From Cellvibrionales bacterium UBA2034 (GTDB lineage Bacteria > Pseudomonadota > Gammaproteobacteria > Pseudomonadales > UBA7239), in NCBI GenBank assembly GCA_002333095.1, contig DDBK01000030.1:1251-15039 (forward strand): a stretch of DNA of 13,789 nt. Reading direction: 5' to 3'. Shown piece by piece: positions 1 through 13,789 of this stretch. A program made the translations under genes and the position numbers. The notes beneath the pieces are model-generated. The model made no database searches and was not told the DNA's origin. It saw nothing but the letters and a program-made list of their open reading frames with translations. Numbering within the stretch: the stretch's first letter is position 1; each line of letters starts with the position of its first letter.

Positions 1-594
1 GACGCGGTAATCGCGGTCATTGGCGTGTACCTGTAACGCACCATTCACGCTCTGGATTTTTCCCTGTGGCGGCGGCAGGGAACGCATGAAATGGTAAAAC
101 GTCAGGAGCGGATCGCCCTTGAGCAATGCAGCATTGATGCCGCCAATCGGGCTATACACCGCTTGGGTCAGCTGGTGTTCAAGCGTGGATAAATCATTGG
201 CCTGCAATAACCTTCGCTGTTGTTCGCTGAGTAATACAGTGCGCCACTGATAGTAAAACTGCCCGATAGCGCTGGCTTGCCCAGTTGTCATGCCTGTCAT
301 GGGCTTGCCGAAAAAATCCTGCTGTTGCAGGCTTTTTTCCACGATGGCGGCGGCTTCGGCAGTTTTTTTTGTATCGGTGTCACCGACCAGTATTAACAGT
401 TTGCGACTGACGCCGCTGTTGCTGCGTTGCAAGGCGTGTAGCAGCACGGGATCATCGCGCAGTGCTGGCAGCAATTCCATGATGTTGTTGCGAACCGGTA
501 TGCCAGGCCATATACCGGAAGTGACTGCCAGCAGGGCTGCTGTACTCAGCACAACGAGCAGTGTCAGCCACACGCGTGGCAACAGCTTTTTCAT
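1..594 (-). CDS. apeM: MMPL/RND-family exporter, N-terminal part (runs off the left edge)
   Basis: An open frame of 198 codons runs from an ATG at 594 to the window edge with no stop, so this is the N-terminus of a longer protein. It begins with a basic residue pair and one hydrophobic segment (about residues 5-26). A periplasmic domain follows, starting VRNNIMELLP, a pattern typical of the first periplasmic loop of MMPL/RND transporters, which usually run to about 750-800 residues. In aryl polyene clusters an MMPL pump (ApeM) sits directly after a LolA-like gene, as here, and is thought to move the lipid-linked pigment out of the inner membrane. The ATG overlaps the LolA stop (ATGA), and no clear ribosome binding site is present, so translation is probably coupled. 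The family call rests on the N-terminus and context; the proton-relay membrane segments are outside the window. Confidence 0.8.
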   Translation of the reverse strand, partial: MKKLLPRVWLTLLVVLSTAALLAVTSGIWPGIPVRNNIMELLPALRDDPVLLHALQRSNSGVSRKLLILVGDTDTKKTAEAAAIVEKSLQQQDFFGKPMTGMTTGQASAIGQFYYQWRTVLLSEQQRRLLQANDLSTLEHQLTQAVYSPIGGINAALLKGDPLLTFYHFMRSLPPPQGKIQSVNGALQVHANDRDYRV

Positions 595-1178
595 GGCACT
601 GTGATATTTTTCAGATGAATCGTGGTGCTGTCGCCATTGCTTTCCGCTATCACCACCGTATTGATCACGCCTTCATGGCCGGTGACGGCAATGGTCTTGA
701 TCAGGGGTTGCAGATCAGCACTCAACGGCGTGACCAGTAATTGCCAGTCAGCCAATGCGCCAGTGGCAGTGACAGCGGCCAGTGTGTCATTGTCCTTCCA
801 TTGGCCGCTGAATGTGGCGGTCATCGCTTGTGTCAGTGCGGCAGCAATCGGGTTTTGCCCTACCTGCAGCGTTCTTTCTCCCTGTGTATCGATTTCGCGA
901 ATCGTGTTACGAGTGAGTATGTAACGCAGCGCGTAAGGTTTCTGTATGTCCCAGATAATCGTGTGTTCTTGACCATCGGGATTCTGGTTGATTTGCAACT
1001 CGCCTTCGGTCACCAGTGGTTTGTCCAGCATGGACAATTTTTTTTCCTGCACGAAATAAAAATGCTTTTGTGTCTGGCCGGCCAGATTGGCCAGTATCTG
1101 TTCGCGTAATGGGCTGTCAGCAGCAACAACTGGCGCGACAAGGAATAAACATGCCAGCCACACACAGAGGCGCTTCAT
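591..1178 (-). CDS. LolA-like periplasmic lipoprotein carrier
   Basis: A 195-residue protein. The ATG at 1178 overlaps the thioesterase stop (ATGA), and the residues from it form a clear signal peptide (basic MKR, hydrophobic core, likely cleavage after PVVAA near residue 20). The longer open frame upstream lacks signal character and would overlap the previous gene by about 100 bp, so I reject it. The mature part shows the LolA-like pattern: an F-x-Q-x-K stretch (residues 42-47), the L-x-x-L-D-K-P-L-x-x-x-G start of the half-barrel strands, and a W-x-I-x-x-P element (76-81). LolA proteins carry lipoproteins across the periplasm. Paralogues in aryl polyene clusters (ApeL type, by position) are thought to carry the pigment-lipid with the MMPL pump encoded immediately downstream. 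It is shorter and more divergent than housekeeping LolA, which fits a dedicated role. Confidence 0.82.
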   Translation of the reverse strand: MKRLCVWLACLFLVAPVVAADSPLREQILANLAGQTQKHFYFVQEKKLSMLDKPLVTEGELQINQNPDGQEHTIIWDIQKPYALRYILTRNTIREIDTQGERTLQVGQNPIAAALTQAMTATFSGQWKDNDTLAAVTATGALADWQLLVTPLSADLQPLIKTIAVTGHEGVINTVVIAESNGDSTTIHLKNITVP

Positions 1179-1648
1179 GATAACAAGCCCGTGGCAGGTG
1201 GTTGGTTCAGTGCCATTTTTTTCTGTTGGTAGTCGACCAGTTTTTCGCGCAGCAAGGGAGGCGACACAAAACACATTTCCTTCGTTCGCATATCAACAGC
1301 TACCTGGATGGAGTACGCCTTGCTCAACTTTTCGCCTGTGTGGGCATCAGTGATCAGGAACTCAATCTTGAGCCGGTTTTCAAATTCAGTCAGTGTGGCG
1401 CAAACGCAAATACGCTGTTTGAAATGCAGTGGCTTGATGTACTTGATGCGCATATCAATGATGGGCCACGCATAGCCGGAATCGCGCATACGCGGGTAAT
1501 CGTATTCAATGCAGTCGAGCAATGCGCAGCGTGCTATTTCCAGATAGCGCGGATAATTGCCATGCCAGACAATCTCCATGGCATCGATATCCTGGAATGG
1601 AATCTCGATATCGATGGTAGTGCTGATTGGCAGTAAGGTGTCGGTCAT
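1175..1648 (-). CDS. apeK: Hotdog-fold acyl thioesterase (4HBT / YbgC type)
   Basis: A 157-residue protein of the usual size for single-hotdog thioesterases. The 4HBT signature lies at residues 18-39: F-Q-D-I-D-A-M-E-I-V-W-H-G-N-Y followed by Y-L-E-I-A-R. Asp20 or Asp22 is the likely catalytic acid, and the H-G-N-Y part lies at the start of the long central helix. These enzymes hydrolyse acyl-CoA or acyl-ACP thioesters in the cytoplasm. In aryl polyene clusters the homologue (ApeK) lies beside the LolA/MMPL genes and is assigned to chain release or removal of stalled chains from the ACP. The start at 1648 has no strong ribosome binding site and follows a 49-bp gap after the lipoprotein gene, the second longest gap in the block. 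The stop overlaps the LolA-like start. Confidence 0.85.
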   Translation of the reverse strand: MTDTLLPISTTIDIEIPFQDIDAMEIVWHGNYPRYLEIARCALLDCIEYDYPRMRDSGYAWPIIDMRIKYIKPLHFKQRICVCATLTEFENRLKIEFLITDAHTGEKLSKAYSIQVAVDMRTKEMCFVSPPLLREKLVDYQQKKMALNQPPATGLLS

Positions 1649-1697
1649 GCATCTGGCTTCGCTGGCAAGTGGAGCCGGTATTCTACCCGACCGCCGA

Positions 1698-2264
1698 TTA
1701 CGGCAATGCCTCTATTTGCAGGCAGTAGTCACGTTCCAGATGGCAGTAGCGCGTCTGGTGCCCATCATACTCAATCCGGATAACAGTCATGGCCTGCGCA
1801 TTCAGCAGGATGCGTTCACGGATAGTGCCGCGGGTGTTTTCAGTCAGGCTGCTGCCAGAAGGCAGGGCGCGTTGCAGCGCAGCAAGATCCAGTGTGGCCA
1901 GCTCGAAATCTGCCAACACGTAGCTGCCATCAAAAGGCGCGGTGAATAGTGGTGACTGCCAGCTTTCCACAGTCTTGCCGTCAAACGAGAGGCTGAACAG
2001 GCGAGTGCCGGTTGGCGTCAGGCCGGCCATTACTACCTGTTGGGGTGAAGCCTGTACCTGCATGATCAGGGTATGTTGTTGCTCGCGGTAACGCGCATGG
2101 ATTTTTTGTGTGAGCGCGATATCCCGTGTGGGCAGCAACAGCTGCATCGGTATCCCGTTGGCTACATTGACAGTGGAAACCGGTTGCACTGAGGTGCAGC
2201 CAGCCAGAAACAGTGTGTGTAACAAGTTGATCGTCAGTAGCGTAAGGATTTTTGCGATTTTCAC
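1698..2264 (-). CDS. DUF3261-type outer-membrane lipoprotein of aryl polyene clusters
   Basis: A 188-residue protein starting with GTG at 2264, whose bases overlap the stop of the preceding gene (GTGA). It has an N-terminal basic/hydrophobic signal ending in a lipobox, F-L-A-G-C, with the lipidated Cys at residue 23. Thr and Ser at +2 and +3 do not give the inner-membrane retention signal, so outer-membrane sorting is expected. The rest is a predicted beta-rich domain with a paired-Cys motif near the end (Y-C-H-L-E-R-D-Y-C). The overall pattern and the position beside LolA, MMPL and ketosynthase genes match the DUF3261 lipoproteins (ApeN type) of aryl polyene clusters. Their function is not established; a role in receiving or anchoring the pigment at the outer membrane is inference. 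The family call is from pattern memory and should be tested by profile search. Confidence 0.75.
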   Translation of the reverse strand: MKIAKILTLLTINLLHTLFLAGCTSVQPVSTVNVANGIPMQLLLPTRDIALTQKIHARYREQQHTLIMQVQASPQQVVMAGLTPTGTRLFSLSFDGKTVESWQSPLFTAPFDGSYVLADFELATLDLAALQRALPSGSSLTENTRGTIRERILLNAQAMTVIRIEYDGHQTRYCHLERDYCLQIEALP

Positions 2265-3145
2265 GAGAGTGATACCTGCAATACGTTAAAGCGTCCGGCG
2301 GGATCACTGTCGATGTGCAGCAGTGTGCGTGCAGGACGCAGCTGGAGAAACTGGCCAAGTGTGTTCCCGCAGTGGCTGTCGTACCAGGGTGGCTCAGGTG
2401 AAGCCGCCCATGCGCTACATCCGGTCAAGTGTTGCAATAACAACCGGGTTGGCGTGTCGATATGTTGGCCGCAAGCCAGCACGGTATTTGCTGGCGATTG
2501 TGGCGATAGAAATTGTGTTGCCAGCCATTGCTGTAGAGCGTCTTTGTCCGGCAGCAAGATGACGGCCTCTATCGTCGCCAGTGTTGTGCCCGGATACGTG
2601 TCATTCGAGAGCAGGAACCAGTGACTGCCTTCACCGACAGCTGTGTCTGCAGGCACGCACAACCGTGTGCGGTGATCGGCAAGTGGCATGGTGCAGATAT
2701 CCACTGAACCGACGAGTGCAGATTGCAAAGAACCGTGATCAAGATCCAGTGCGGCTAATTGCAACGCGCTTTCCAGTGGTGCATGGCGGCGGGTAACAAA
2801 GTGGCTGCGCCCATGTAACCCGAAATGTTTCGCAAGATAAAAACAGGCGGAGTTGCTTACGGTATTGATAAAACTGAGTGGCTTGGGCGGTAACCCGTGT
2901 TCTACCATTTGTTCCAGAACATCGAGTGTGATTTCCAGATCACCGCGCCCTGATGTGAGATAAACGCCGGTATTTTTTGGCGCTGGATTCGCTGTCAGGC
3001 AGCGGCCAGCACCGATCAGTGCCAGCTGGATAAAGCGGCCTACACGCCGCACCGGTTCGCCTGTGGCCTCTTTGACCAATTCTTTTAATGGTGGCAGCGC
3101 GTCTTCTATTTTTTCAGCGTAATGGCCGTGGGCGATAATTTTCAT
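2261..3145 (-). CDS. Ketosynthase-like chain-length-factor partner lacking the active-site Cys
   Basis: A 294-residue thiolase-fold protein, shorter than a full ketosynthase (about 390-420). It has the N-S-x-C-F-Y-L-A-K helix (about 97-106) used by ketosynthases for dimer contacts. Next comes a segment that aligns with the catalytic-Cys elbow: G-L-H-G-R-S-H-F-V-T-R-R-H-A-P-L-E-S-A-L. At the position of the nucleophilic Cys there is His121, and I find no later H-G-T or G-H-T active-site His motif. It therefore cannot condense chains alone. Its gene overlaps that of the complete ketosynthase upstream (ATGA), so I infer a KS-CLF heterodimer, like the KS-CLF pair known in aryl polyene synthesis (ApeO with ApeC) and in type II polyketide systems. 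GGGAG at 3153-3157 is a good ribosome binding site, 7 nt before the ATG. Confidence 0.78.
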   Translation of the reverse strand: MKIIAHGHYAEKIEDALPPLKELVKEATGEPVRRVGRFIQLALIGAGRCLTANPAPKNTGVYLTSGRGDLEITLDVLEQMVEHGLPPKPLSFINTVSNSACFYLAKHFGLHGRSHFVTRRHAPLESALQLAALDLDHGSLQSALVGSVDICTMPLADHRTRLCVPADTAVGEGSHWFLLSNDTYPGTTLATIEAVILLPDKDALQQWLATQFLSPQSPANTVLACGQHIDTPTRLLLQHLTGCSAWAASPEPPWYDSHCGNTLGQFLQLRPARTLLHIDSDPAGRFNVLQVSLS

Positions 3146-4305
3146 CGGGCATCTCCCGTGCCGATCAACAGGGCCGTGTTGTTACCGCCAAACCCGAAAT
3201 AATCCAGCAAGTAAATGCCTGCTGCTGGCACTGCGGGTGTTTGAACCAGGGAGATTCCCAACACGGTGTTATCCGCGCCAATGCCTGTGGTGGCGGGTAT
3301 AAACCCGTTCGACAATGCTTGCCAGAAAAGAATCAGTTCTGTGAGGCCGCACGCACCCAGCGTGTGGCCAATAAACGGTTTCAATGCGCATACAGGTGGT
3401 AGCGTTGAACCGGAAAAAATACGCAACAAGCCTGCAGCTTCTGCTTCATCATTGAGAAGGCTTGCTGTGCCATGTGCCTTGATGGCGGTAATCGCTGTGT
3501 GCGAAATACCTGCTTCCGCCAGTGCTGCTGCAATCACAGCTGCTACAGAAGAACCATCTGCATTGGCTGCCGACATGCTGTGTGTATCGCACATATTCGC
3601 GCCGCCAAGCAGCCGAAAATCGCTATCGTTGCCAGGGCCTAACAGCAATGCACTGGCAGCTTCCCCCAGTACAAGGCCATCGCGTGCTGCATCGAAAGGT
3701 TTCATCACAGAACGTGTGAGCAAACCCAGGCCGTGAAAGCCTAACGCGGTGATGTGGTTGATCACTTCCACACCCAGTACCAGTGCATAACGAATCTTGC
3801 CGGCTTGTATCAGGCGCGATGCATACCACAAGGCATTGGCGCTGCTGGTGCAGGCAGTATTGAAACTGAAGTCAGGTCCGCGAAAGCCGAAGCGCTGGCG
3901 CACGGCTTCGCCGAGTTTGCCAAATGACGGCGAGTCTTCCATCGGAATGGCATCGTTACGCACAGTGTGCGCGTGTTGATAGCTGTATTCAGATAATGAA
4001 ATATCAAAAGAAGACGAGCCGATGAAAAGTGAAATTCCTGCACGATCCGCTCCATCCAGCCCTGCAGCGGCCAATGCCTGCTCGATGACATGGTCGATAA
4101 CAGTATCAAGGCGTTGTGTGATGTCAGCCAGTGGAAAATCGGCCAATAATTTGTACGGTACGCATTCATGGATTGTGCCGATATCACAATTAACTGGCTG
4201 TGGTGGCAGGGGCGCGCGCTGCAGTGCAGCCAGTTGTGCGGCCATGCCTGTCCCAAGATGGGTAGCGATCCCTGCACCCAGAAAGCAGGCCTGGTTCATT
4301 GCCAT
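3142..4305 (-). CDS. Beta-ketoacyl-ACP synthase (catalytic KS, partner of the Cys-less protein)
   Basis: A 387-residue type II ketosynthase with the full catalytic set: nucleophile Cys152 in N-T-A-C-T-S-S-A, His278 in K-A-H-G-T-A, Lys309 and His314 in L-K-P-F-I-G-H-T-L-G-A-C-G, and a C-terminal F-G-F-G-G-N-N-T loop. It would catalyse decarboxylative condensation of malonyl-ACP with an acyl chain in the cytoplasm. The gene follows the ACP gene by 4 bp and overlaps the degenerate ketosynthase-like gene by 4 bp, so ACP, KS and chain-length-factor candidate form a compact unit. The ATG at 4305 is used; a second Met two codons later (4299) is equally possible. It is one of three complete ketosynthases in the window, and which one starts and which one extends the polyene cannot be told from sequence alone. 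Confidence 0.9.
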   Translation of the reverse strand: MAMNQACFLGAGIATHLGTGMAAQLAALQRAPLPPQPVNCDIGTIHECVPYKLLADFPLADITQRLDTVIDHVIEQALAAAGLDGADRAGISLFIGSSSFDISLSEYSYQHAHTVRNDAIPMEDSPSFGKLGEAVRQRFGFRGPDFSFNTACTSSANALWYASRLIQAGKIRYALVLGVEVINHITALGFHGLGLLTRSVMKPFDAARDGLVLGEAASALLLGPGNDSDFRLLGGANMCDTHSMSAANADGSSVAAVIAAALAEAGISHTAITAIKAHGTASLLNDEAEAAGLLRIFSGSTLPPVCALKPFIGHTLGACGLTELILFWQALSNGFIPATTGIGADNTVLGISLVQTPAVPAAGIYLLDYFGFGGNNTALLIGTGDAR

Positions 4306-4309
4306 AACA

Positions 4310-4594
4310 TCAATCGCGCTGGAAGTTGAGGATAGTATCAGCGAGCGTGTTAACCGATTTCAGTGCACGCCTTGCTTCCGGTCCACCTTCAATGCTGACG
4401 CCGTAACGGTTTTTGACGGCCATTGAAATTTGTAATGCGTCCAGTGAATCCAGATCCAGGTCGCCACCGATCAGGATGGCATCGTCATCAATACTGCCGG
4501 GTTCAATATCTTTATCGCATTCCACCACGATCAGTGATTTCAGATCTGTTTTCAGGCTGGCAAGATCAAGCGTGGTGAGATCCACAGTGGTCAT
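4310..4594 (-). CDS. Acyl carrier protein
   Basis: A 94-residue acidic carrier protein. The phosphopantetheine attachment site is Ser50 in G-G-D-L-D-L-D-S-L-D-A-L-Q-I, preceded by the usual helix I and followed by helices II-III (M-A-V-K-N-R-Y-G-V). It would carry the growing aryl polyene chain as a thioester between ketosynthases, ketoreductase and dehydratase, after activation by a phosphopantetheinyl transferase that is not in this window. The open frame extends much further upstream, but those codons lie inside the ABC permease in another frame. The real start is the ATG at 4594, which overlaps the permease stop (ATGA) and has CCGGAG 6 nt upstream. Aryl polyene clusters commonly have two ACPs; only this one is visible. 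Confidence 0.93.
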   Translation of the reverse strand: MTTVDLTTLDLASLKTDLKSLIVVECDKDIEPGSIDDDAILIGGDLDLDSLDALQISMAVKNRYGVSIEGGPEARRALKSVNTLADTILNFQRD

Positions 4595-5790
4595 GTATTT
4601 CTCCGGAATAGTACGAGTGCCAGTGCAATGGTGACGGCGCCAAACAGGAATAATGAACCGGCTTCTGGCAGCACGTCCTTTACACCGCCGCTGCGCAGGA
4701 AAATATCCAGAAAACCTTCCAGGCCCCACGCCATGGGGGAAAAGCCTGCAATCTGCTGCATGCTGTCCGGCATCACAAAACGCGGCACCATGATGCCACC
4801 CAGCGCAGCGAGCAGGATATTGCCCACCCCGCCCAGTGTGGTGGCCTGATCGGTTGTGCGCGCTACCACCGCGATCAGGATGCCATACCCGAGTGCCGCT
4901 ATGCTCAGGCAGACAGACATCAACAACAGGCCCGCCAGTGAGTGACCGAGTGTCAGGCTGTCTGCGCCAAATAGTGGCATCAGGTATACGCCCACGGTGA
5001 GCATCAGCAACACCTGGATCTGGTTGATCACAAAATACGGAACCAGTTTGCCGATGACTGGCAGCGCCAGTGGAACCGGCAAGGTGCGTAAACGGCGCAG
5101 TGTTCCCTGCTGGCGCTCGCTGATCAGCGTGTTGGCCAATGGCACGACAGAAAAAAACATCGCAAATACCAGCCATGCCGGCACGCTCTGTTGAACAGAG
5201 GTGGGTTGAGCAGAAGCAGGTTGAACAGAAGTAGTTTGGTTTTTTTGATAACTGTATTGGATAGTGACCGGGTTGCTATTGAGTGCGTCTTCATCGATGC
5301 CATCATCCAGTGAGAAATCGCTGTCCAGCGCGCGCTTCATCTTGATATTGCGCAATAATGCTTCGATGCGCTGCTTGCTCATTGCTTCGCCGACTACTGC
5401 AGTAAAAATCGCTTCGATCTGCGGGTTCGTGGCAGGCGCTACGAGAATCTCCGCGTGTAAATCATTGTTATTTTGCTGCAGTGTTAACAGGAAAGCGGCT
5501 TCATCGTGACGGATTTTTTCGGGTGCGCTGAGAGTGTCCGTCACATGCCAGGAAAAAACATCGCGTTGTTCCAGCAGCTTGATGACGCTGGCTGCGCTGT
5601 CGCTTCTTGCCTGGTCATCCACGAGCACAGCAATTTTCTGGCCGCCAGCATTTTGTGCAAACTGGCTTTGCAACGCGAGTGACATGATCAGGATAAATGC
5701 AACTGGCATCACAAATAACAGCAGCAAACCATGTATGTCGCGCAGCAATAGCAGCAGTTCTTTTTTGATGGTGGCGATTAATGCAGTCAT
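4591..5790 (-). CDS. ABC-2 type exporter permease
   Basis: A 399-residue membrane protein with the ABC-2 permease layout. It has an N-terminal membrane segment (about 21-40: G-L-L-L-L-F-V-M-P-V-A-F), a large extracytoplasmic domain (about 41-203), then about five membrane segments from 204 to 394, including E-R-Q-Q-G-T-L-R-R-L-R-T-L-P after the second segment, a hallmark of this family (as in YhhJ/DrrB-like permeases). It pairs with the ATPase encoded just upstream to form a lipid, drug or pigment exporter. A TTG at 5808 that overlaps the ATPase stop would add six residues. I prefer the ATG at 5790 because AGGAA lies 7 nt before it. The extracytoplasmic domain contains a 5-residue repeat (187-201) from a 15-bp tandem repeat. 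Substrate unknown; the aryl polyene is the natural guess from context. Confidence 0.9.
   Translation of the reverse strand: MTALIATIKKELLLLLRDIHGLLLLFVMPVAFILIMSLALQSQFAQNAGGQKIAVLVDDQARSDSAASVIKLLEQRDVFSWHVTDTLSAPEKIRHDEAAFLLTLQQNNNDLHAEILVAPATNPQIEAIFTAVVGEAMSKQRIEALLRNIKMKRALDSDFSLDDGIDEDALNSNPVTIQYSYQKNQTTSVQPASAQPTSVQQSVPAWLVFAMFFSVVPLANTLISERQQGTLRRLRTLPVPLALPVIGKLVPYFVINQIQVLLMLTVGVYLMPLFGADSLTLGHSLAGLLLMSVCLSIAALGYGILIAVVARTTDQATTLGGVGNILLAALGGIMVPRFVMPDSMQQIAGFSPMAWGLEGFLDIFLRSGGVKDVLPEAGSLFLFGAVTIALALVLFRRNT
4601..4606 (-). promoter_or_regulatory. Ribosome binding site of the ACP gene
   Basis: CCGGAG on the minus strand, 6 nt before the ATG at 4594. It decides the short ACP start over the much longer open frame that reads back into the permease gene. 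Confidence 0.7.
5190..5234. repeat. Three imperfect 15-bp tandem repeats inside the permease gene
   Basis: Three head-to-tail 15-bp units start at 5190, 5205 and 5220; each begins GTTGA on the plus strand and they differ at a few bases. On the coding strand they give the pentapeptides TSVQP, ASAQP and TSVQQ (permease residues 187-201), a flexible stretch just before the second membrane segment. The frame is preserved because the unit is a multiple of three. Confidence 0.85.
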
Positions 5791-5797
5791 CTGCGCG

Positions 5798-5802
5798 TTC
5801 CT
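5798..5802 (-). promoter_or_regulatory. Ribosome binding site favouring the ATG start of the permease
   Basis: AGGAA on the minus strand, 7 nt before the ATG at 5790. It supports that start over the TTG at 5808, which has no comparable site. Confidence 0.5.
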
Positions 5803-5804
5803 GC

Positions 5805-6581
5805 TCAATCCCGCAATGCGTGGTGTGTCAGCGAGAGATAGAAATCCTCCAGTCGCTGTGCGTTTTGCCGGGCAGGCAGTGCCGGCATATCAGCAGCACG
5901 TGCCAGTATGTTGGCCAGCGAGTCCTGCACCAGCAGTTTGCCATGATCGATAATGGCTATCGCGTCACAGATCGACTGGATTTCTTCCATGTAATGGGAG
6001 GTATAGATAATAGTCATGCCGGCGCGTTGTAATCCGGCAATGGATTCAAGAATAAAATGGCGTGACTGCGCATCGATACCTACGGTTGGTTCATCCAGGA
6101 ACAATAGTTCAGGTTGGTTCAGCAAGCCGAGTGCAAGATTGAGCCGGCGCCGAACGCCCCCAGAACAGGATGATGCGCGCTGGTGCAACAGGTCATCCAG
6201 CCCACACACCTGTACTGCAAAATCAATACGTGCGCGTTTGTGCGCGCCTTGTAATCCATAGAATCCTGCAAAGCAGTCGAGGTTTTCCTGCAAGGTCAGC
6301 GTCGGGTAGAACGCATAATCCTGTGGCACGAGCGAAATGTATTCATGCAGCTTGCGCGTATTGGACAGGCGTTCGCCGTTGATCCGGATGTCGCCATGCT
6401 GCGGCAAAAGAATACCTGTCAGCAATGCCAGCAACGTGCTTTTGCCTGCCCCGTTTGGCCCCAGCAAACCGAAACAACTGCCAGTGTCTATCGACAGTGT
6501 TATATCGTCCACTGCGGGCAATTTCTCGCCGGGATAATGGAAACGGAGATTGCGGACGGCGATAGCCGGTACAGATTCCAT
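5805..6581 (-). CDS. ABC exporter ATP-binding subunit
   Basis: A 258-residue nucleotide-binding subunit with every motif in order: Walker A G-P-N-G-A-G-K-S (41-48), Q-loop Gln87 in V-P-Q-D, signature C-S-G-G-V (139-143), Walker B L-L-F-L-D-E-P (159-165), D-loop G-I-D (168-170) and H-loop His196 in T-S-H-Y-M-E-E. It is of the ABC-2 exporter (CcmA/NatA/DrrA-like) type, and would power the permease encoded next. The signature departs from the usual LSGGQ, with Cys for Leu and Val for Gln. The start ATG at 6581 shares one base with the methyltransferase stop (TGATG), and there is no clear ribosome binding site, so translation is probably coupled. An ABC transporter within an APE-type cluster is a less common addition to the MMPL pump. 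Confidence 0.95.
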   Translation of the reverse strand: MESVPAIAVRNLRFHYPGEKLPAVDDITLSIDTGSCFGLLGPNGAGKSTLLALLTGILLPQHGDIRINGERLSNTRKLHEYISLVPQDYAFYPTLTLQENLDCFAGFYGLQGAHKRARIDFAVQVCGLDDLLHQRASSCSGGVRRRLNLALGLLNQPELLFLDEPTVGIDAQSRHFILESIAGLQRAGMTIIYTSHYMEEIQSICDAIAIIDHGKLLVQDSLANILARAADMPALPARQNAQRLEDFYLSLTHHALRD

Positions 6582-7441: not shown

Positions 7442-7473
7442 GCGCGTACCGGGAGCCAATCCGTTCAGGCAGA

Positions 7474-8220
7474 TCAGGGATAACCGGTTTCGTTTGGATC
7501 CACTTGCACTTCATACACTTGCCATGTGTGATCGTAGTACGAACGGTTGGTAAAAATAATGCGGCCCTTCCCTTTGTAAAGCGAATACTGTCTGGCGGTA
7601 TCCGATCCTTTGAAGTTGAAAGGAATCCACGCCTTGCCAGTGATGTGTCCGGTACTGGTAGTGGGTTCACCGACTAATGCATACGCTTCTGACATGCTCA
7701 TGCCTTTTTTCACAGTGCTCAAGGGCTGGCCTTTACCGCTGCTGCTTGCGCTGCTTTGTGAAGTGCTGCTGGATTTGCTGGCACTGCTGGCAGATTTTTT
7801 CAGGGAAACGGTACCTTTCTTGTATTGAGGCACATTGCTGTCGCTCAGGCTGTCCAGTGCCTGATCTGCGTATTTGCGCAGTTTCTTGTTGGTGCTGCTA
7901 TTGTTAGTCACAGTACTCAGTGTATCGCGGTAGCGCGGATTGCGTGATTTGCCCAGCGCTTTGGCGGCCCACGACAACGCATCGATGTCGCCAGTTGGCG
8001 CATTGGCATAATTCTGTAACAGCACTTCAGCCAGAGTATCCAGAACAGTCTGGTTATCTTCGCTGTTATTGAAGATATCTTGTGATGCCTCCTTGACACT
8101 GCGCATGCTGCCTTCGGTCAGCAGATCAATGTAGCGTTGTTCGGATGCATCGAGTGCATAGCCAATGCTGGCCAACCCGAATAGTGCTGCGGCAATAATT
8201 TTTTTCATCGTGTGTTTCAT
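7474..8220 (-). CDS. Secreted protein: helical-repeat domain, Ser-rich linker, BamE/SmpA-like domain
   Basis: A 248-residue protein whose family I do not recognise as a whole. The start at 8220 is set by AAGGAG 8 nt upstream and by the signal peptide that follows (MKHTMKK, hydrophobic core, cleavage probably near residue 22-24). Residues about 28-128 are helical and resemble HEAT-type repeats (A-E-V-L-L-Q-N-Y, A-A-K-A-L-G, Y-A-D-Q-A-L-D-S-L). Residues 139-163 are a Ser/Lys/Ala-rich low-complexity linker. Residues about 168-240 begin V-K-K-G-M-S-M-S-E-A-Y-A-L-V-G-E-P-T, the typical opening of SmpA/OmlA (BamE-like) domains, with later strands ending in W-Q-V-Y-E-V-Q-V. There is no lipobox, so a soluble periplasmic protein is expected. 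The location inside the pigment operon suggests an envelope role in export or assembly; this is inference. Confidence 0.75.
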   Translation of the reverse strand: MKHTMKKIIAAALFGLASIGYALDASEQRYIDLLTEGSMRSVKEASQDIFNNSEDNQTVLDTLAEVLLQNYANAPTGDIDALSWAAKALGKSRNPRYRDTLSTVTNNSSTNKKLRKYADQALDSLSDSNVPQYKKGTVSLKKSASSASKSSSTSQSSASSSGKGQPLSTVKKGMSMSEAYALVGEPTTSTGHITGKAWIPFNFKGSDTARQYSLYKGKGRIIFTNRSYYDHTWQVYEVQVDPNETGYP

Positions 8221-8228
8221 CAGTCTTT

Positions 8229-8234
8229 CTCCTT
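8229..8234 (-). promoter_or_regulatory. Ribosome binding site of the BamE-like secreted protein
   Basis: AAGGAG on the minus strand, 8 nt before the ATG at 8220. It is the strongest Shine-Dalgarno in the window. It fixes the start at the signal peptide rather than at the upstream Met at 8268, which would overlap the preceding gene. Confidence 0.75.
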
Positions 8235-8257
8235 GAAGTGTATGACGAAATGTAAAT

Positions 8258-8527
8258 CTAGTGACCAATCACATTGCTAGCACGCAGTATGCCAACGATA
8301 CCGACCATGATCCAGAATGTATTCAGCAGGGTATAGGCAGCATCTTTTTTCAGTATTGAACACCATGACAACATCACGGCATCGATAGTGTTGAAAATCC
8401 ACACAAACATGAAAGGGCTGGCAGGGCCCAGCCAGCTCACCAGGCTGAAACTGAAAATCCGCATCAGAACGCCGGTCATTTCAAAAAAACGGATATATTT
8501 AAGTACAAAATCATTCAGTGCTTGCAT
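8258..8527 (-). CDS. Small integral membrane protein
   Basis: An 89-residue protein, mostly hydrophobic. Two clear membrane segments lie at about 36-58 (F-M-F-V-W-I-F-N-T-I-D-A-V-M-L-S-W) and 64-82 (Y-T-L-L-N-T-F-W-I-M-V-G-I-V-G-I-L), joined by a short L-K-K-D-A turn. A weaker hydrophobic stretch lies at 18-32. The N-x-x-D/G...K-K-D...L-N-x-x-W-I hairpin resembles small two-helix membrane proteins of the CBU_0592 type, but I am not sure of this. The ATG at 8527 follows the ketosynthase stop by 5 bp with only a weak upstream GGAAG, so coupling to that gene is likely. Function unknown. Being co-transcribed with the polyene enzymes, it might hold the synthase at the membrane; that is a guess. 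Confidence 0.72.
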   Translation of the reverse strand: MQALNDFVLKYIRFFEMTGVLMRIFSFSLVSWLGPASPFMFVWIFNTIDAVMLSWCSILKKDAAYTLLNTFWIMVGIVGILRASNVIGH

Positions 8528-8532
8528 GGTTT

Positions 8533-9792
8533 TTACTGCTTCCAGCGTTTGAAAATCAGCGATGTGTTGATGCCGCCAAAAGCAAAGTTGTTACTCATCA
8601 CGTATTCGTTGTGCAGGGTGCGGCCTTGGCCAGCGATGTAATCCAGCTCCCCGCAGCGCGGATCGACGTTATCGAGATTCAACGTTGGCGCGTACCAGTC
8701 GCGGTTCATCATTTCGATGGTCAGCCACGCTTCCAGTGCGCCGCATGCGCCCAGTGTGTGGCCGAAATAGCTTTTCAATGAGCTGATAGGCATGCGCGAC
8801 CCAAATACAGCGTGTGTAGCTGTTGTTTCAGCGATGTCGCCAAATTCGGTGGCTGTGCCGTGTGCATTGACATAGCCGATGGCATCTGGCGACAAACCCG
8901 CATCCTGCAGTGCCAGTTCCATGACTGCTTGCATCGTGGCAGCGGTAGGCTGGGTGATGTGGGCGCCATCAGAGTTGGTGCCGTAGCCGACTACTTCTGC
9001 GTGAATGGTTGCACCGCGTGCTTGCGCATGTTCAAGGTCTTCCAGGATCAGCGTGCCCGCACCCTCGCCAATGACCAGACCATCGCGGCCTGCATCAAAC
9101 GGGCGCGGTGTGAGTTCTGGCGTATCGTTTTTCAGGCTGGCAGCGAACAGGGTGTCGAAAACCGCGGAATCCGCCGCGCACAGTTCCTCTGCGCCACCGG
9201 CAGCCATCAGGCTTTGCTGCCCGAACTTGATGGCTTCATAGGCATAGCCCACGCCCTGGCTGCCCGAGGTGCAGGCGCTGGCGGTAGGAATGATGCGCCC
9301 CTTGAGGCCGAAGAACAGGCCGATGTTGACGGCGCAGGTGTGGCTCATCATTTCAATATACGTGGTGGCCGACATCGAGCGGGTGGACTGGTCGGTGTAC
9401 ATCCTGGCGAAGTTGATGGTCGCCTCGGTACTGCCATTGCAGGAGCCGTAGGCCACACCCATGCGGCCATCGGTGATGGACGGATCATTGAGCAGGCCGG
9501 CATCAGCCAGTGCCACTTCTGCGCTGCGTGTCGCCATCAATGCCACGCGCCCCATGCTGCGGGTCTGTTTGCGTGAGTAATGGGCGGGTTTGCTGAAATC
9601 CGGGATCGGTCCGGCCAGGTGTGTCAGTAGCCCTTCGATGGCTGCCCAGTCGTCCATGGTGCGGATACCGTTGCGCCCGGCGCGGATATTGGCCTCGATG
9701 CTCGCCCAGTCCTGTCCCAGCGATGTGATCCCGCTCATGCCGGTCACCACCACTCGTCTGGGAATGTCACGTCTGGGTCTAAATTCTTTCAT
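8533..9792 (-). CDS. apeR: FabF-like beta-ketoacyl-ACP synthase
   Basis: A 419-residue ketosynthase of full FabF length. Catalytic residues are all present: Cys174 in T-A-S-A-C-T-S-G, His311 in V-N-A-H-G-T-A-T, Lys340 and His345 in L-K-S-Y-F-G-H-T-L-G-A-C-G, and the C-terminal N-N-F-A-F-G-G-I-N-T loop (401-410). It comes after a KS-DH-KR trio, the same order as apeO-apeP-apeQ-apeR in E. coli-type aryl polyene clusters, so the symbol is given by position and similarity. It would condense malonyl-ACP with the aryl starter or with the growing chain. It is separated from the ketoreductase gene by 53 bp, the largest gap in the window, and has only a weak ribosome binding site. Confidence 0.92.
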   Translation of the reverse strand: MKEFRPRRDIPRRVVVTGMSGITSLGQDWASIEANIRAGRNGIRTMDDWAAIEGLLTHLAGPIPDFSKPAHYSRKQTRSMGRVALMATRSAEVALADAGLLNDPSITDGRMGVAYGSCNGSTEATINFARMYTDQSTRSMSATTYIEMMSHTCAVNIGLFFGLKGRIIPTASACTSGSQGVGYAYEAIKFGQQSLMAAGGAEELCAADSAVFDTLFAASLKNDTPELTPRPFDAGRDGLVIGEGAGTLILEDLEHAQARGATIHAEVVGYGTNSDGAHITQPTAATMQAVMELALQDAGLSPDAIGYVNAHGTATEFGDIAETTATHAVFGSRMPISSLKSYFGHTLGACGALEAWLTIEMMNRDWYAPTLNLDNVDPRCGELDYIAGQGRTLHNEYVMSNNFAFGGINTSLIFKRWKQ

Positions 9793-9845
9793 GTACGCAA
9801 GCCTGTCATCTGGGCAAACCGGTCATATCGAGGGCTGCTATTGTA

Positions 9846-10577
9846 TCAGCCCACCATGCCGCCATTCACTGAAATCACCTGCCGAGTGATGTAAGCCGCA
9901 CTATCGGAAAACAGGTATGCCACCAGACTGGCCACTTCTTCCGGTGTGCCCATGCGTTCAGCAGGAATGATTTTCATGGCGTGCTCCAGCACCTGGGCTT
10001 CCATCGCCATATCGGTATCAATCAAGCCGGGCGCGACGCAATTGACGGTGATCTTGCGTTTGGCGAGTTCCACCGCCAACGCTTTGCATGCCCCGATCAA
10101 GCCGGCTTTTGATGCGCTGTAATTCACTTGTCCGCGATTGCCCATCACGCCTGATACCGATGACATCGCCACAATACGGCCGCCCTTGCGTGTGCGGATC
10201 ATCGGCATCACCAACGGTTGTAGCACGTTGTAAAAACCGTCGAGGTTGGTATGGATGACAGCATCCCACTCTTCCCCGGTGATGGCAGGGAATGCGTTGT
10301 CACGCGTGATGCCCGCGTTGCACACCACGCCGTAATACGCACCGTGTTTTTCTACATCATCCAGCAATACAGACTGCGCCTGTTCTCGATTGGCGATATC
10401 AAATTGCAGGCAGCGCACATTGCGCCCCATAGCAACAATTTCGTCCCGCACTGCGTGTAACTCTTCCATGCGTGAGCGGCAATGCAACACGATATCAAAA
10501 CCGTTTTGTGCGAGTGCGATGGCCACGGCGCGGCCAATACCGCGGCTGGAGCCAGTGACAAGAGCAGTGCGGGTCAT
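9846..10577 (-). CDS. apeQ: 3-oxoacyl-ACP reductase (FabG-like SDR)
   Basis: A 243-residue classical short-chain dehydrogenase/reductase, the normal FabG length. The nucleotide-binding glycine motif is T-G-S-S-R-G-I-G (8-15), with C-N-A-G at 86-89. The catalytic tetrad is Asn111, Ser140, Tyr153 and Lys157 (Y-S-A-S-K), and V-N-G-G closes the fold near the C-terminus. It would use NADPH (inferred from the Ser-Arg in the glycine motif) to reduce each beta-keto group on the ACP-bound chain before dehydration. The ATG at 10577 overlaps the dehydratase stop (ATGA) and has AGGAA 7 nt upstream. The open frame extends 39 codons further upstream but those lie inside the dehydratase gene. Confidence 0.95.
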   Translation of the reverse strand: MTRTALVTGSSRGIGRAVAIALAQNGFDIVLHCRSRMEELHAVRDEIVAMGRNVRCLQFDIANREQAQSVLLDDVEKHGAYYGVVCNAGITRDNAFPAITGEEWDAVIHTNLDGFYNVLQPLVMPMIRTRKGGRIVAMSSVSGVMGNRGQVNYSASKAGLIGACKALAVELAKRKITVNCVAPGLIDTDMAMEAQVLEHAMKIIPAERMGTPEEVASLVAYLFSDSAAYITRQVISVNGGMVG

Positions 10578-11056
10578 GTGGATATTCCTGTCGGATGCTG
10601 GAGTGAAAAAGGCCTGACAAAATTTTGCGGATTGTCTGGCCGGAATGCTTTTATCTGGGCAGTGGCGCGAATGTCTCCCGCCTGGATCACGCAATCAAAT
10701 GCACCCAGCCCGCTGTCATCGCGATAGACCGGTTTTGCAGCGAGCGCCAGCGTAGAGCCAGCCGGGAAAACAGCGCTATTACAATCATAGCTGCGGCAAC
10801 CCAGCAAGAACCCCGCTTGCACAGGTTTGTTGTGGGTCAATTGTTGATGGCCAGCCCATATGCCGATGGTCTGTGCCATGTATTCCATACCTACCCAGCT
10901 GGGTACGCCACCGAGTTCTGCATCAAAAAACGGCGAATCTGGTGTGATATGTACAAGCGCCTCGGCAAAATTATCGTCGTAATCGACCACTTCGCTCAGC
11001 AACAGCAGCGGTGCACGGTGTGGCAATAAAGTTTCCAGATCCAGGATTTTTTTCAT
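10574..11056 (-). CDS. apeP: FabZ/FabA-like hotdog dehydratase subunit (ApeP type)
   Basis: A 160-residue hotdog-fold protein. It opens with L-L-P-H-R-A-P-L-L-L-L (10-20), a FabZ signature. The central helix element F-F-D-A-E-L-G-G-V-P-S-W-V-G-M-E-Y-M-A-Q (43-62) matches the FabZ stretch that normally reads F-x-G-H-F-P-G-x-P...P-G-V-x-x-E-x-x-A-Q. The catalytic acid is kept (Glu58), but the position of the catalytic His holds Glu47. A lone homodimer would then lack half its active site. In aryl polyene systems ApeP works as a heterodimer with ApeI, which fits this pattern; no ApeI candidate lies in the window. The ATG overlaps the ketosynthase stop (ATGA), with a weak TGGAAG 7 nt upstream. 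Its job is removing water from 3-hydroxyacyl-ACP to make each double bond. Confidence 0.87.
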   Translation of the reverse strand: MKKILDLETLLPHRAPLLLLSEVVDYDDNFAEALVHITPDSPFFDAELGGVPSWVGMEYMAQTIGIWAGHQQLTHNKPVQAGFLLGCRSYDCNSAVFPAGSTLALAAKPVYRDDSGLGAFDCVIQAGDIRATAQIKAFRPDNPQNFVRPFSLQHPTGIST

Positions 11057-12246
11057 GTATGAGCTTCCAGAATGACCGCAGCATTGCTACCGCCGAAAGC
11101 AAAGGAGTTGCTCAACATGCGCAGGATATTTTCATTCGGCAAAGTTTCTGTTGTGCGCAATAATTTTATCTTTGCCAAAGTGCCATCTGGTGTTGCTGTA
11201 TTGATCTGTGCAGGCAGCATGCGATTACTGTTTATATCTGACAATAACAACCAGCACAGTGCGGCTTCTGTCGCGCCAGCTGCGCCAAGCGTGTGGCCAG
11301 TCAATGGCTTGGTGGAACTGCACGGTGTGTTTTCACCAAAAACACGGGACACGGCAGCGCTCTCCATCGCATCATTCAGCGGTGTGGCGGTGCCATGCAG
11401 GTTGATGTAGTTGACAGAATGTGTGTGGATGCCGGCATCGGCCAGTGCAGCACGCATCGCAGCTTCTGCGCCGATGCCATCCGGATGCGGTGCTGAAATA
11501 TGGTGTGCATCAGATGATTCGCCAATGCCGGCCAGTAAAATGCCATCGCCATATTCATTTTTTACCATCAGGAACAGTGCAGCACCTTCGCCGATATTGA
11601 TACCATCCCGATTTGCTGCAAATGGTTCGCAACGGGCAGGTGACATCGCTTCCAATGCAGTGAAGCCGTTTAACGTGAGTTTGCACAGTGAATCGCTGCC
11701 ACCACAGATCACAGCATCGCACAGATCCAGCTCTAGCAATTGTCGTGCACTGCCGAGGGTTTTTGCGCTGGATGAACAGGCAGTAGAAACGGTGTAGGCA
11801 ATGCCAGGCAGCTCAAGAAAGCGCGCCAGAAATTCTGCAGGGGAGCCAATTTCCTGCTGGCGATAATGGTAATCAGCAGGCCACACACCGTGGTGCATTT
11901 TCTCCGCCAGTGCGGCTTCGCCTTCTGCAATGCCTGATGTGCTGGATCCGATCACAACGCCGATGCGGTCGCGGCCAAATACAGTTATCGCTTCGTCTAT
12001 GTCGTTTTGTATCTGTGCCAATGCCTCAAGCAGCAATTGATTATTGCGGCAGTCGAACGATTGTAAATGTGCAGGCACAACAGGCAATGTAGTCGTAACA
12101 CACCCCACCCACACGTTCCGTTCCGGCAGCCAACCTGATTGCTGTTGCATGCCGGCTGCGTGCCCTGCAAGCAAGTTGGTCAATACCTCGGTTTTGTTGT
12201 TGCCGAGTGCGTTGAGCAAACCCAGAGCAGAAAGAACAGGCTTCAT
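11053..12246 (-). CDS. Beta-ketoacyl-ACP synthase (first KS of the KS-DH-KR-KS block)
   Basis: A 397-residue ketosynthase with Cys157 in V-S-T-A-C-S-S-S-A, His284 in L-H-G-T-A-T, Lys313 and His318 in T-K-P-L-T-G-H-T-L-G-A-A-G, and the C-terminal F-A-F-G-G-S-N loop. All catalytic residues are present. By position before the dehydratase, ketoreductase and second ketosynthase it matches apeO of aryl polyene clusters, but another complete KS sits beside the chain-length-factor candidate, so I leave the symbol open. The ATG at 12246 is chosen because it overlaps the stop of the FAD enzyme (ATGA). An alternative TTG at 12258 would add four residues. It probably extends the polyene chain with malonyl units. 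Confidence 0.92.
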   Translation of the reverse strand: MKPVLSALGLLNALGNNKTEVLTNLLAGHAAGMQQQSGWLPERNVWVGCVTTTLPVVPAHLQSFDCRNNQLLLEALAQIQNDIDEAITVFGRDRIGVVIGSSTSGIAEGEAALAEKMHHGVWPADYHYRQQEIGSPAEFLARFLELPGIAYTVSTACSSSAKTLGSARQLLELDLCDAVICGGSDSLCKLTLNGFTALEAMSPARCEPFAANRDGINIGEGAALFLMVKNEYGDGILLAGIGESSDAHHISAPHPDGIGAEAAMRAALADAGIHTHSVNYINLHGTATPLNDAMESAAVSRVFGENTPCSSTKPLTGHTLGAAGATEAALCWLLLSDINSNRMLPAQINTATPDGTLAKIKLLRTTETLPNENILRMLSNSFAFGGSNAAVILEAHT

Positions 12247-13475
12247 GCAGCGCGACAAATTTCCGCGAGAACATTCACGCGGCGTTCGCTTTCCTTGACG
12301 TAAGGATTGTTTTCATCCCACGCATACCCGGCCAGTATCGAGCAGATCATGGCTTTCACATTGTCGAGTTGTGTGTGATGGAAAATAATGTCCTGGAAGC
12401 GCTGGTCATACCATGCCGTCACAAATGTGCGGAATGCATCCACGCCGCGCTTCAATGGCACGGCATATTCTGTTTCCCAGTTGATGCTTTCGCCTTTCAG
12501 TTGGCGGTCGAGCAGTGCGGCAGCCATGCTGGCGGATTTCATGGCAATCGTGACGCCGGAAGAAAACACCGGATCAAGGAATTCACCGGCATTGCCGAGT
12601 AATGCAAAGCCGTTGCCGTGCAAACTTTTTACGTTGGCCGAATAGCCGGTGATCTGGCGGGCAGGCTGGATGATTTCAGCGCGCTCCAGCAATTTGGCCA
12701 GTCGTGGCTCTTCATCCACGATAGTCATCAGCCGTTCTTCCAGATTTTCTGTATACGGTGTAAAAAATTCCTGTTTGGCAACAACGCCCAGTGAGCAAGT
12801 GCCGTTGGCAAAAGGAATTGTCCAGTACCAGACATCACGTTGTGTTGGATGGATGCTGACGAGAATCTTGTTGCGATCAAAATGTGTATCGGTAATGTGG
12901 TCGCGAACATGGGTAAAGCACGCTTGGCGCACAGGGAAGTCTGACGGGTATTCAAGATCGAGCAAGCGCGGCAGTGTCCGACCGAAACCGCTGGCATCCA
13001 GCAGAAATTTCGCACTCGCTGTGCGCACGTCTCCCTCCGGTGTGCGATACGTGACATGGGGGCATTCGCCGCCGACATCCACAGCAGTGATTTCATGATG
13101 GTAGCGGATGTCTGCACCAAAACGCGCTGCTTCATCTGCAAGGATTTTATCAAAACGCCCACGCTGTACCTGGAATGTAGTGCCAGGGCCGGGTGAAAAC
13201 TTTTCTGTAAAATTGAATTCTGTGTATTTGCCGTCGTGCTGGAATGCTGCCCCGTTCTTGAACTGGAAATCCCCGGCTTGCACAGCGGCCAACATGCCGG
13301 CTTCTTCCACAAACGCCATACACTGCGGCAACAGGCTTTCGCCGATGGAAAAACGTGGAAATTCCTCGCGCTCCAGAACCAGGACGGAATAGCCTTTCTG
13401 CACGAGCAATGCGGAAGCGATTGCGCCGGATGGGCCGGCACCGATAACAATTACATCAGGATCTTTGGCTGTCAT
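12243..13475 (-). CDS. FAD-dependent halogenase/oxidoreductase-family enzyme
   Basis: A 410-residue flavoprotein. The N-terminal FAD motif is G-A-G-P-S-G (12-17), followed by E-R-E-x-F-P-R-F-S-I-G-E-S-L-L-P (35-50), shared by flavin-dependent halogenases and geranylgeranyl-reductase-type enzymes. The second FAD contact is D-A-S-G-F-G (160-165), and G-N-A-G-E-F-L-D-P-V-F-S-S-G-V lies near the end of the FAD domain. Two halogenase-type marks are present: W-Y-W-T-I-P (216-221), matching the WxWxIP motif, and Lys73 in F-K-N-G-A-A-F, near where the catalytic Lys lies in phenol/pyrrole halogenases. Such enzymes occur in xanthomonadin and flexirubin clusters. Halogenation or hydroxylation of the aryl head is possible; many homologues have no proven activity. 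AGGGG 6 nt upstream supports the start. It ends in an ATGA overlap with the ketosynthase gene. Confidence 0.87.
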   Translation of the reverse strand: MTAKDPDVIVIGAGPSGAIASALLVQKGYSVLVLEREEFPRFSIGESLLPQCMAFVEEAGMLAAVQAGDFQFKNGAAFQHDGKYTEFNFTEKFSPGPGTTFQVQRGRFDKILADEAARFGADIRYHHEITAVDVGGECPHVTYRTPEGDVRTASAKFLLDASGFGRTLPRLLDLEYPSDFPVRQACFTHVRDHITDTHFDRNKILVSIHPTQRDVWYWTIPFANGTCSLGVVAKQEFFTPYTENLEERLMTIVDEEPRLAKLLERAEIIQPARQITGYSANVKSLHGNGFALLGNAGEFLDPVFSSGVTIAMKSASMAAALLDRQLKGESINWETEYAVPLKRGVDAFRTFVTAWYDQRFQDIIFHHTQLDNVKAMICSILAGYAWDENNPYVKESERRVNVLAEICRAA

Positions 13476-13481
13476 GGATTA

Positions 13482-13486
13482 CCCCT
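13482..13486 (-). promoter_or_regulatory. Ribosome binding site of the FAD enzyme
   Basis: AGGGG on the minus strand, 6 nt before the ATG at 13475 and within the 18-bp gap after the ammonia-lyase stop. Confidence 0.5.
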
Positions 13487-13493
13487 GCAGGCA

Positions 13494-13789
13494 TTAACGG
13501 AATAGCGGCCATTCTCGGCGCTGGATCAAGTCAATGGTATGACGCAAATCAGTTTCCAGCGCCCGGTCTTCATCGACAAATGCGAAATGTGAAAAAACGG
13601 CCCGTTTCATTGAGGCAACTGGCGCTGTCAATGCATCTGCATCGAGATCATTTTGACGGATACGCAACTCAAGCCCTTGCGTAGCAGCCAGCAGGCTGGC
13701 CGCTGCTACTTGTTCTGTCAGTTGCAGTACCCGCAAGCAATCGCGCGCTGCAATAGTGCCCATGCTCACCTTGTCCTGGTTGTGGCATT
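13494..13789 (-). CDS. Aromatic amino acid ammonia-lyase (HAL/TAL/PAL family), C-terminal part
   Basis: The last 98 codons of a gene that enters from the right edge; no start is visible. The first readable residues are C-H-N-Q-D-K-V-S-M-G-T-I-A-A-R-D, the conserved C-terminal motif of the MIO-containing histidine/tyrosine/phenylalanine ammonia-lyases, which normally lies about 90-100 residues before the end, as here. These enzymes remove ammonia from an aromatic amino acid. In flexirubin and several aryl polyene clusters the member is a tyrosine ammonia-lyase giving 4-coumarate as aryl starter (for example the Flavobacterium johnsoniae enzyme). The Ala-Ser-Gly triad and the substrate-selecting residue lie outside the window, so histidine, phenylalanine and tyrosine cannot be told apart here. 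The apparent Met at 13769 is internal. The stop is 18 bp before the FAD enzyme start. Confidence 0.88.
   Translation of the reverse strand, partial: CHNQDKVSMGTIAARDCLRVLQLTEQVAAASLLAATQGLELRIRQNDLDADALTAPVASMKRAVFSHFAFVDEDRALETDLRHTIDLIQRREWPLFR

Follow-up and report, generated by a model that had tools for sequence, protein, structure and literature searches.

A probable hybrid aryl polyene-dialkylresorcinol gene cluster in a Cellvibrionales-type gammaproteobacterium

The DNA analysed here, referred to as the window, is a stretch of 13,789 nucleotides from Cellvibrionales bacterium UBA2034 that corresponds to positions 1251-15039 of its contig (C47), within an assembly of 2.24 Mb and 193 contigs. 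All 18 open reading frames (ORFs) of the window are on the minus strand and several overlap one another. Scans with Pfam and NCBIfam models recovered the genes that had been named in an initial annotation of this DNA, among them genes for synthesis of an aryl polyene (APE), a yellow bacterial pigment, and also showed a set of genes of the type found with dialkylresorcinol (DAR) genes. Taken together with the content of a second contig (C111), these findings make it probable that the window covers the middle of a hybrid APE-DAR cluster in a Cellvibrionales-type gammaproteobacterium. Pfam E values were at most 3e-20 for the flavoenzyme, the dehydratase, the ketoreductase, the three ketosynthases, the DUF3261 protein and both ATP-binding cassette (ABC) genes, and 1.3e-20 for a methyltransferase; family matches were weaker for the thioesterase, the LolA-like protein, the end of an ammonia-lyase, the acyl carrier protein (ACP) and a protein resembling a chain-length factor (CLF).

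APE genes were identified by comparison with 18 APE proteins of E. coli (annotated region L156) and 19 of Pseudoalteromonas (plasmid pPBSW1, L155) at a match limit of E 1e-3. Of the 18 ape genes of E. coli, 16 (apeC to apeR) had matches on C47 and C111 taken together, and no counterpart of apeA or apeB was found among the proteins of the two contigs. Homologues of ApeO, ApeP, ApeQ and ApeR are contiguous and in that order in the window, as expected from the ketosynthase-dehydratase-ketoreductase-ketosynthase arrangement noted earlier. They comprise an ApeO-like ketosynthase of the PRK09185 type (11053..12258; NF006618, 543 bits; 49% identity to E. coli ApeO), an ApeP-like dehydratase (10574..11056; PF22817, 3e-20; 39% to ApeP), an ApeQ-like ketoreductase of the FabG type (9846..10580; TIGR01831, 398 bits; 63% to ApeQ) and an ApeR-like initiating ketosynthase of the PRK09116 type (8533..9792; NF006587, 724 bits; 60% to ApeR). 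The ketoreductase also scored 269 bits with the FlxB model, for which the cut-off is 340. An enoyl-reductase-specific family was not detected in any of the 18 scanned ORFs, adh_short_C2 matching only the ketoreductase, and the E. coli APE annotation likewise lists no enoyl reductase.

Further APE genes lie at the low-coordinate end of the window. These are a DUF3261 lipoprotein resembling ApeN (1698..2264; PF11659, 1.2e-27), a hot-dog thioesterase resembling ApeK (1175..1648; PF13279, 5.8e-09), a LolA-like periplasmic carrier resembling ApeL (591..1178; PF19574, 1.8e-12; 54.8 bits with the LolA2_flexi model, cut-off 125) and the N-terminal part of an ApeM-like MMPL/RND exporter (1..594). The MMPL piece within the window had no Pfam match and takes its name from the longer piece on C47 and from E. 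coli ApeM, to which the C47 piece was 30% identical over 540 aligned positions. Identities of the ApeJ, K, L, M and N homologues of C47 to the E. coli proteins were 47, 50, 21, 30 and 31%, respectively. The DUF3261 protein of the window failed to match that of Pseudoalteromonas at E 1e-3. A fused glycosyltransferase/acyltransferase gene was found outside the window, upstream on C47.

The high-coordinate end of the window holds two further genes, both of which had been taken as signs of an unusual cluster. The first encodes an aromatic amino acid ammonia-lyase, of which only the C-terminal 97 amino acids lie inside the window (13494..13789; PF00221, 2.2e-11); the gene runs to position 16032 of contig locus L004 and its N-terminal part matched PF00221 at 1.1e-83. 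The two pieces were 64% and 51% identical to the ammonia-lyase of the Pseudoalteromonas APE cluster, where this gene lies between those for the acyltransferase and the thioesterase, and scored 179 bits (N-terminal piece) and 37.5 bits (C-terminal piece) with the FlxA model (cut-off 700), the gene being broken by N stretches. The second encodes an APE-type flavin adenine dinucleotide (FAD) enzyme of the flavin-halogenase family (12243..13475; Trp_halogenase/FAD_binding_3; PF04820, 9.9e-23) that was 58% identical to the FAD enzyme of the Pseudoalteromonas cluster, where it is located between the MMPL position and DUF3261. The APE cores of related loci L019, L020 and L021 also came with lyase, thioesterase, LolA, MMPL and FAD enzyme genes (the lyase of L020 being found in adjoining L053), but with no matched ABC genes within 20 kb. 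L016 was like these three as far as its contig end, ahead of the ketoreductase, while L022 had no lyase, thioesterase, LolA or ApeR match in its 20 kb. Because both the lyase and the halogenase-like flavoenzyme occur in the Pseudoalteromonas APE cluster and in related genomes, they are standard APE parts, and the APE half of the locus is ordinary.

Among 293 genomes of the order, the flavoenzyme was found in 48, in 43 of which it lay within 5 kb of an ApeP match of at least 35 bits. ApeP itself was matched in 88 of the 293 genomes at E 1e-3 and in 67 over the cut-off; this count used the 59 genomes with a match of at least 35 bits (one match per genome), leaving aside weaker ones, and the flavoenzyme adjoined ApeP in 43 of the 59. 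The enzyme is thus not special to the cluster in the window. In two cases, L017 14738-15949 (genome G032) and G070:C6, the flavoenzyme and the ApeP match of the same genome were on different contigs, and the G032 flavoenzyme match contained one TAG.

The same enzyme bears on the proposal of the initial annotation that the locus is an APE cluster with an unusual starter, a halogenated head group and ABC export, with no DAR part. A lysine and a W-x-W-x-I-P stretch of the flavoenzyme, which we take to be motifs of FADH2-dependent halogenases, aligned with those of the halogenases 3e1t, ChlB4 and PltA and were invariant in 9 of 9 aligned APE flavoenzymes, as this proposal would predict. However, the best solved relative of the enzyme was 3nix, labelled 'Flavoprotein/dehydrogenase' (375 bits over residues 5-407), as opposed to at most 144 bits for halogenases among solved structures. 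This result, the frequent position of the same enzyme beside ApeP and the presence of adjoining DAR genes on C111 make the proposal as a whole very improbable; the flavoenzyme itself may or may not halogenate.

Between the APE genes described above is the DAR part of the window, corresponding to the accessory half of a DAR cluster. It consists of an ABC exporter ATPase (5805..6581; PF00005, 3.9e-32), an ABC-2 permease (4591..5808; PF12698, 3e-34), an ACP at the position of darC (4310..4594; NF006617, 1.7e-11, under its cut-off), a ketosynthase at the position of darJ (3142..4305; PF02801/PF00109) and, at the position of darK, a CLF-like degenerate ketosynthase (2261..3145; best Pfam match, 2.4e-4). 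A search of PDB sequences with the CLF-like protein returned a FabF as a weak match (E 0.03) and pentatricopeptide-repeat entries in which no stretch was significant. In the comparison with the APE proteins of E. coli and Pseudoalteromonas (18 and 19, respectively), no match at E 1e-3 was obtained for the ABC pair, the cassette CLF, the methyltransferase, DarH, DarG or DarA.

The remaining DAR genes are on C111. The low-coordinate end of C47 overlaps the start of C111 inside the MMPL gene, with 181 of 221 alignment columns identical and 36 of the rest gaps, and by this contig-end overlap the two contigs share one locus. The overlapping MMPL sequences differ in length by 36 bases, which suggests strain variation in the assembly, and a strain variant may have caused the break between the contigs. 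C111 carries the MMPL continuation. DarH, DarG, DarB and DarA come next, encoded on the opposite strand, and after them a small FabA-like ORF, one further ORF, ApeC, D, E, F and G and an ApeH-like ORF whose end resembles ApeI. NCBIfam scores were 584 bits (cut-off 450) for the StlD/DarB subfamily, 471 bits (cut-off 300) for DarH, which is BtrH-like, and 167 bits (cut-off 70) for DarG. DarA was identified only by its homology to L018 and by deposited names, some close relatives being deposited as 'dialkylresorcinol condensing enzyme'. Other C111 proteins were 29, 60, 49, 39, 40 and 32% identical to E. coli ApeC, E, F, D, G and H, respectively. The match to apeI was weak (37 bits for a small ORF); the terminal part of the ApeH-like ORF also matched the ApeI-like model PF22818 (32.7 bits, cut-off 28.5). 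Read on the coding strand of the window, the gene order is J-lyase-FAD-O-P-Q-R-[two ORFs, methyltransferase]-ABC-ABC-ACP-KS-CLF-N-K-L-M-DarH-G-B-A-C-D-E-F-G-H/I, where KS is the ketosynthase, as opposed to C-D-E-F-G-H-I-J-K-L-M-N-O-P-Q-R in E. coli. Contig C161 of genome G029 had the usual APE order over the stretch present.

The association between the DAR part and DAR genes was evident from two surveys. In the first, which covered the order's 293 genomes, 10 contained the cassette ketosynthase (at least 328 bits, the next ketosynthase match being 222 bits) and 9 contained DarA, every DarA genome being one of the 10 (Fisher p 3e-16); the tenth ketosynthase genome, G033, had a partial cassette ketosynthase and no DarA match. 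Five of the 9 DarA genomes supplied query alignments and 4 were independent. The two genes were on one contig, 4.1-4.8 kb apart, in 6 of the 9. In G021, for example, the APE core was followed by a further methyltransferase-like ORF and by the genes of the cassette (ABC ATPase, permease, ACP, ketosynthase, CLF-like); next, on the opposite strand, came a BtrH-like and a DarG-type gene, DarB and a presumed DarA. In the second survey, which covered the best 80 loci from a set of 227 cassette-ketosynthase relatives with presence thresholds chosen for this analysis and with many loci ending at contig ends, the ABC ATPase was present in 65 loci, the permease in 70, the ACP in 78, the CLF-like gene in all 80, DarH in 58, DarG in 55, DarB in 38 and DarA in 36. 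An APE-type ketoreductase and DarA occurred in one stretch of up to about 21 kb in 7 loci (L073, L076, L078, L088, L089, L092 and L102), including four from Marinobacter and one from Pseudomaricurvus. The ABC exporter, listed in the initial annotation as part of an unusual mix, is therefore a member of a conserved cassette that accompanies DAR genes.

Whether the two gene sets act together is a separate question. They could represent adjacent but distinct pathways whose products are not linked by an ester and are exported separately, the aryl polyene being free and the dialkylresorcinol either free or put to another use. For instance, 2-hexyl-5-propyl resorcinol is a stand-alone product of one Pseudomonas chlororaphis (PMC6403133; this and the other papers are cited from the parts available). 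Moreover, in 4 of the 6 genomes with the cassette ketosynthase and DarA on one contig, the flavoenzyme was 58 kb from the ketosynthase (G062) or on a separate contig (G022, G122 and G248); in G021 and G145 the distance was at most 10 kb, an ApeR-like ketosynthase and ABC genes shared a contig in G001, and the assembly of G029 was too fragmented to place them. In contrast, DarA was confined in this sample to genomes that carry the APE flavoenzyme (9 of 9, Fisher p 4e-8), the acyltransferase DarH exceeded its model cut-off and adjoins DarG, DarB and DarA, and systems that combine the gene sets have been studied in two cases, flexirubin and arcuflavin, whose products are, in the available accounts, joined. 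Separate pathways therefore appear unlikely.

A hybrid cluster remains the preferred interpretation. Since the locus is an APE cluster with a DAR part set into it, the product is probably a flexirubin-like two-part pigment, likely an ester of the flexirubin/arcuflavin type between an aryl polyene and a dialkylresorcinol. The chemical steps, the ester link and the transport route proposed here are those that family membership would predict. Thus, the ammonia-lyase would provide a starter of the 4-coumarate type, which the ApeH-like ligase of C111 would load onto the ApeE/F ACP; ApeR would start the chain, ApeO/ApeC would extend it, and ApeQ with ApeP/I would leave one double bond per round. The lyase and ligase steps have been demonstrated for flexirubin in Chitinophaga (PMC3992019), and the roles of ApeR, ApeO and ApeC are summarised in PMC8253772. 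DarB and DarA of C111 would form the dialkylresorcinol, for which the ACP, ketosynthase and CLF encoded by the ABC genes' neighbours probably supply an acyl or beta-ketoacyl chain; DarH, as a BtrH-like acyltransferase, would join polyene and resorcinol as an ester, and transport of the pigment to the outer membrane may fall to the ABC-2 exporter together with the LolA/MMPL/DUF3261 set.

Several results weigh against this interpretation. The pigment is predicted from gene content; the lyase gene is interrupted by N stretches and the 4-coumarate-type starter is predicted from its family; the adjacency of C47 and C111 comes from the overlap with its 36-base length difference, as judged from assembled contigs. 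At 471 bits, DarB of C111 falls short of the narrow DarB model's cut-off (550); for DarA, neither NCBIfam nor Pfam gave a match. The Fisher p values treat genomes as unrelated and ignore kinship. Lastly, DarH was found without DarA or DarB in 19 of the 80 loci, 11 of them at least 20 kb long, and the cassette is therefore not tied to DAR everywhere.

Ketosynthase/CLF/DarH sets that lack DarA and DarB, mostly with ABC genes, came mainly from Syntrophales, other delta-type bacteria and Spirochaetes (loci L081, L086, L090, L093, L095, L096, L098, L099, L107, L109, L110, L116 and L120-L122, among others). L098 also contained ammonia-lyase, LolA, ketoreductase, AMP ligase and B12-binding radical SAM genes and possibly specifies a polyene conjugate with another acceptor. 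Six alphaproteobacterial loci (L058, L061, L064, L066, L069 and L071; Caulobacteraceae, Hyphomonadaceae and others) had DAR cassettes with ABC genes, DarH, DarG, DarB and DarA but none of the scored APE core genes in the flanks fetched. The best CLF model for the CLF-like protein was the ishigamide CLF, which we take to be polyene-forming. The cassette could thus be a second, independent ketosynthase-CLF line that makes its own unsaturated chain, the aryl polyene of the pigment then being attached to a resorcinol that carries, or is replaced by, a second polyene, and cassettes with DarH/DarG but without DarA/DarB attaching polyenes to another acceptor; we regard this as quite unlikely. A functional test of DarH or of the ABC-ACP-KS-CLF cassette was not found in the literature searched on APE and DarH.

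Three other genes separate the ApeR homologue from the ABC genes. A small membrane-like protein (8258..8527) and a putative exported repeat protein (7474..8268) had no Pfam or NCBIfam family match; a protein 85% identical to the former is present in sister genome L046. The third gene encodes an S-adenosylmethionine methyltransferase (6581..7459; PF13649, 1.3e-20), whose counterparts in L046 and L048 likewise adjoin the ABC genes. Relatives of the repeat protein occurred at 7 of the 80 cassette loci, two of which are contigs of sister genomes G001 and G029, and in L046 the gene lies next to those for the methyltransferase and the ABC exporter, as does a more distant relative in L048.

The apparent oddity of the window thus resolves into a defined pigment type: the locus is a further member of the hybrid APE-DAR class, from a Cellvibrionales-type lineage and with its own gene order, and its pigment type is a known one. 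The suggestion of an APE-type cluster with a flexirubin-like component is in agreement with the APE and DAR genes found, as is the expectation of a product different from that of E. coli. As regards a tight fit to one characterised family, the hybrid class was already described but the gene order differs. The ABC-ACP-KS-CLF set emerges as a portable cassette, spread across several phyla and often accompanied by DAR genes, and Marinobacter changyiensis, M. persicus and a Pseudomaricurvus are relatives in which the roles of DarH and the cassette are directly addressable.

Compared with simple APE systems, the locus has the ApeC-R complement of E. coli (L156) and Pseudoalteromonas sp. Bsw20308 (pPBSW1, L155), and shares the ammonia-lyase and FAD enzyme with the latter. 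Closer parallels are found in organisms that make both halves of the pigment. In Chitinophaga pinensis, the flexirubin genes include, as in the present locus, an ammonia-lyase for the starter, a type II polyketide synthase for the polyene, DarA/DarB, LolA and exporter genes, but two separate clusters hold the polyene and the DAR genes, and the lyase is a tyrosine ammonia-lyase, whereas that of the window is assigned by sequence to the broader aromatic amino acid lyase family; in Flavobacterium johnsoniae, polyene and DAR genes occupy one 37 kb cluster (PMC3992019). Azoarcus sp. BH72 makes the APE-DAR hybrid arcuflavin, and its genes share with the present locus the ABC ATPase, permease, ACP, ketosynthase, next ORF, BtrH-like gene, DarB and DarA. 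As far as the available description goes, the first five correspond in order to darF, darI, darC, darJ and darK, with two extra genes between darF and darI; the BtrH-like gene, DarH in NCBIfam, is darE, and the further genes are darD, B and A. Azoarcus differs in having its arc genes at two unlinked loci and its dar genes at another, as opposed to one locus here, and in a proposed chorismatase as opposed to an ammonia-lyase as the source of the starter (PMC3949708). Hybrid APE-DAR clusters are also on record for marine Pseudomonadaceae (APE-DAR V1-V3, the APE cluster of V1 being called similar to those of E. coli and V. fischeri; PMC10165715) and, as arylpolyene-resorcinol hybrids, for Marinobacter persicus (PMC12874462), which, by the parts available, resemble the present locus in the connection of an APE to a DAR cluster in Gammaproteobacteria. 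Loci L076 and L089 of M. persicus contain the same cassette, DarA, DarB and APE core genes. In contrast with V1-V3, compared by their description in the available text, and with the M. persicus hybrids, the DAR genes of the present locus are flanked by APE genes on both sides.

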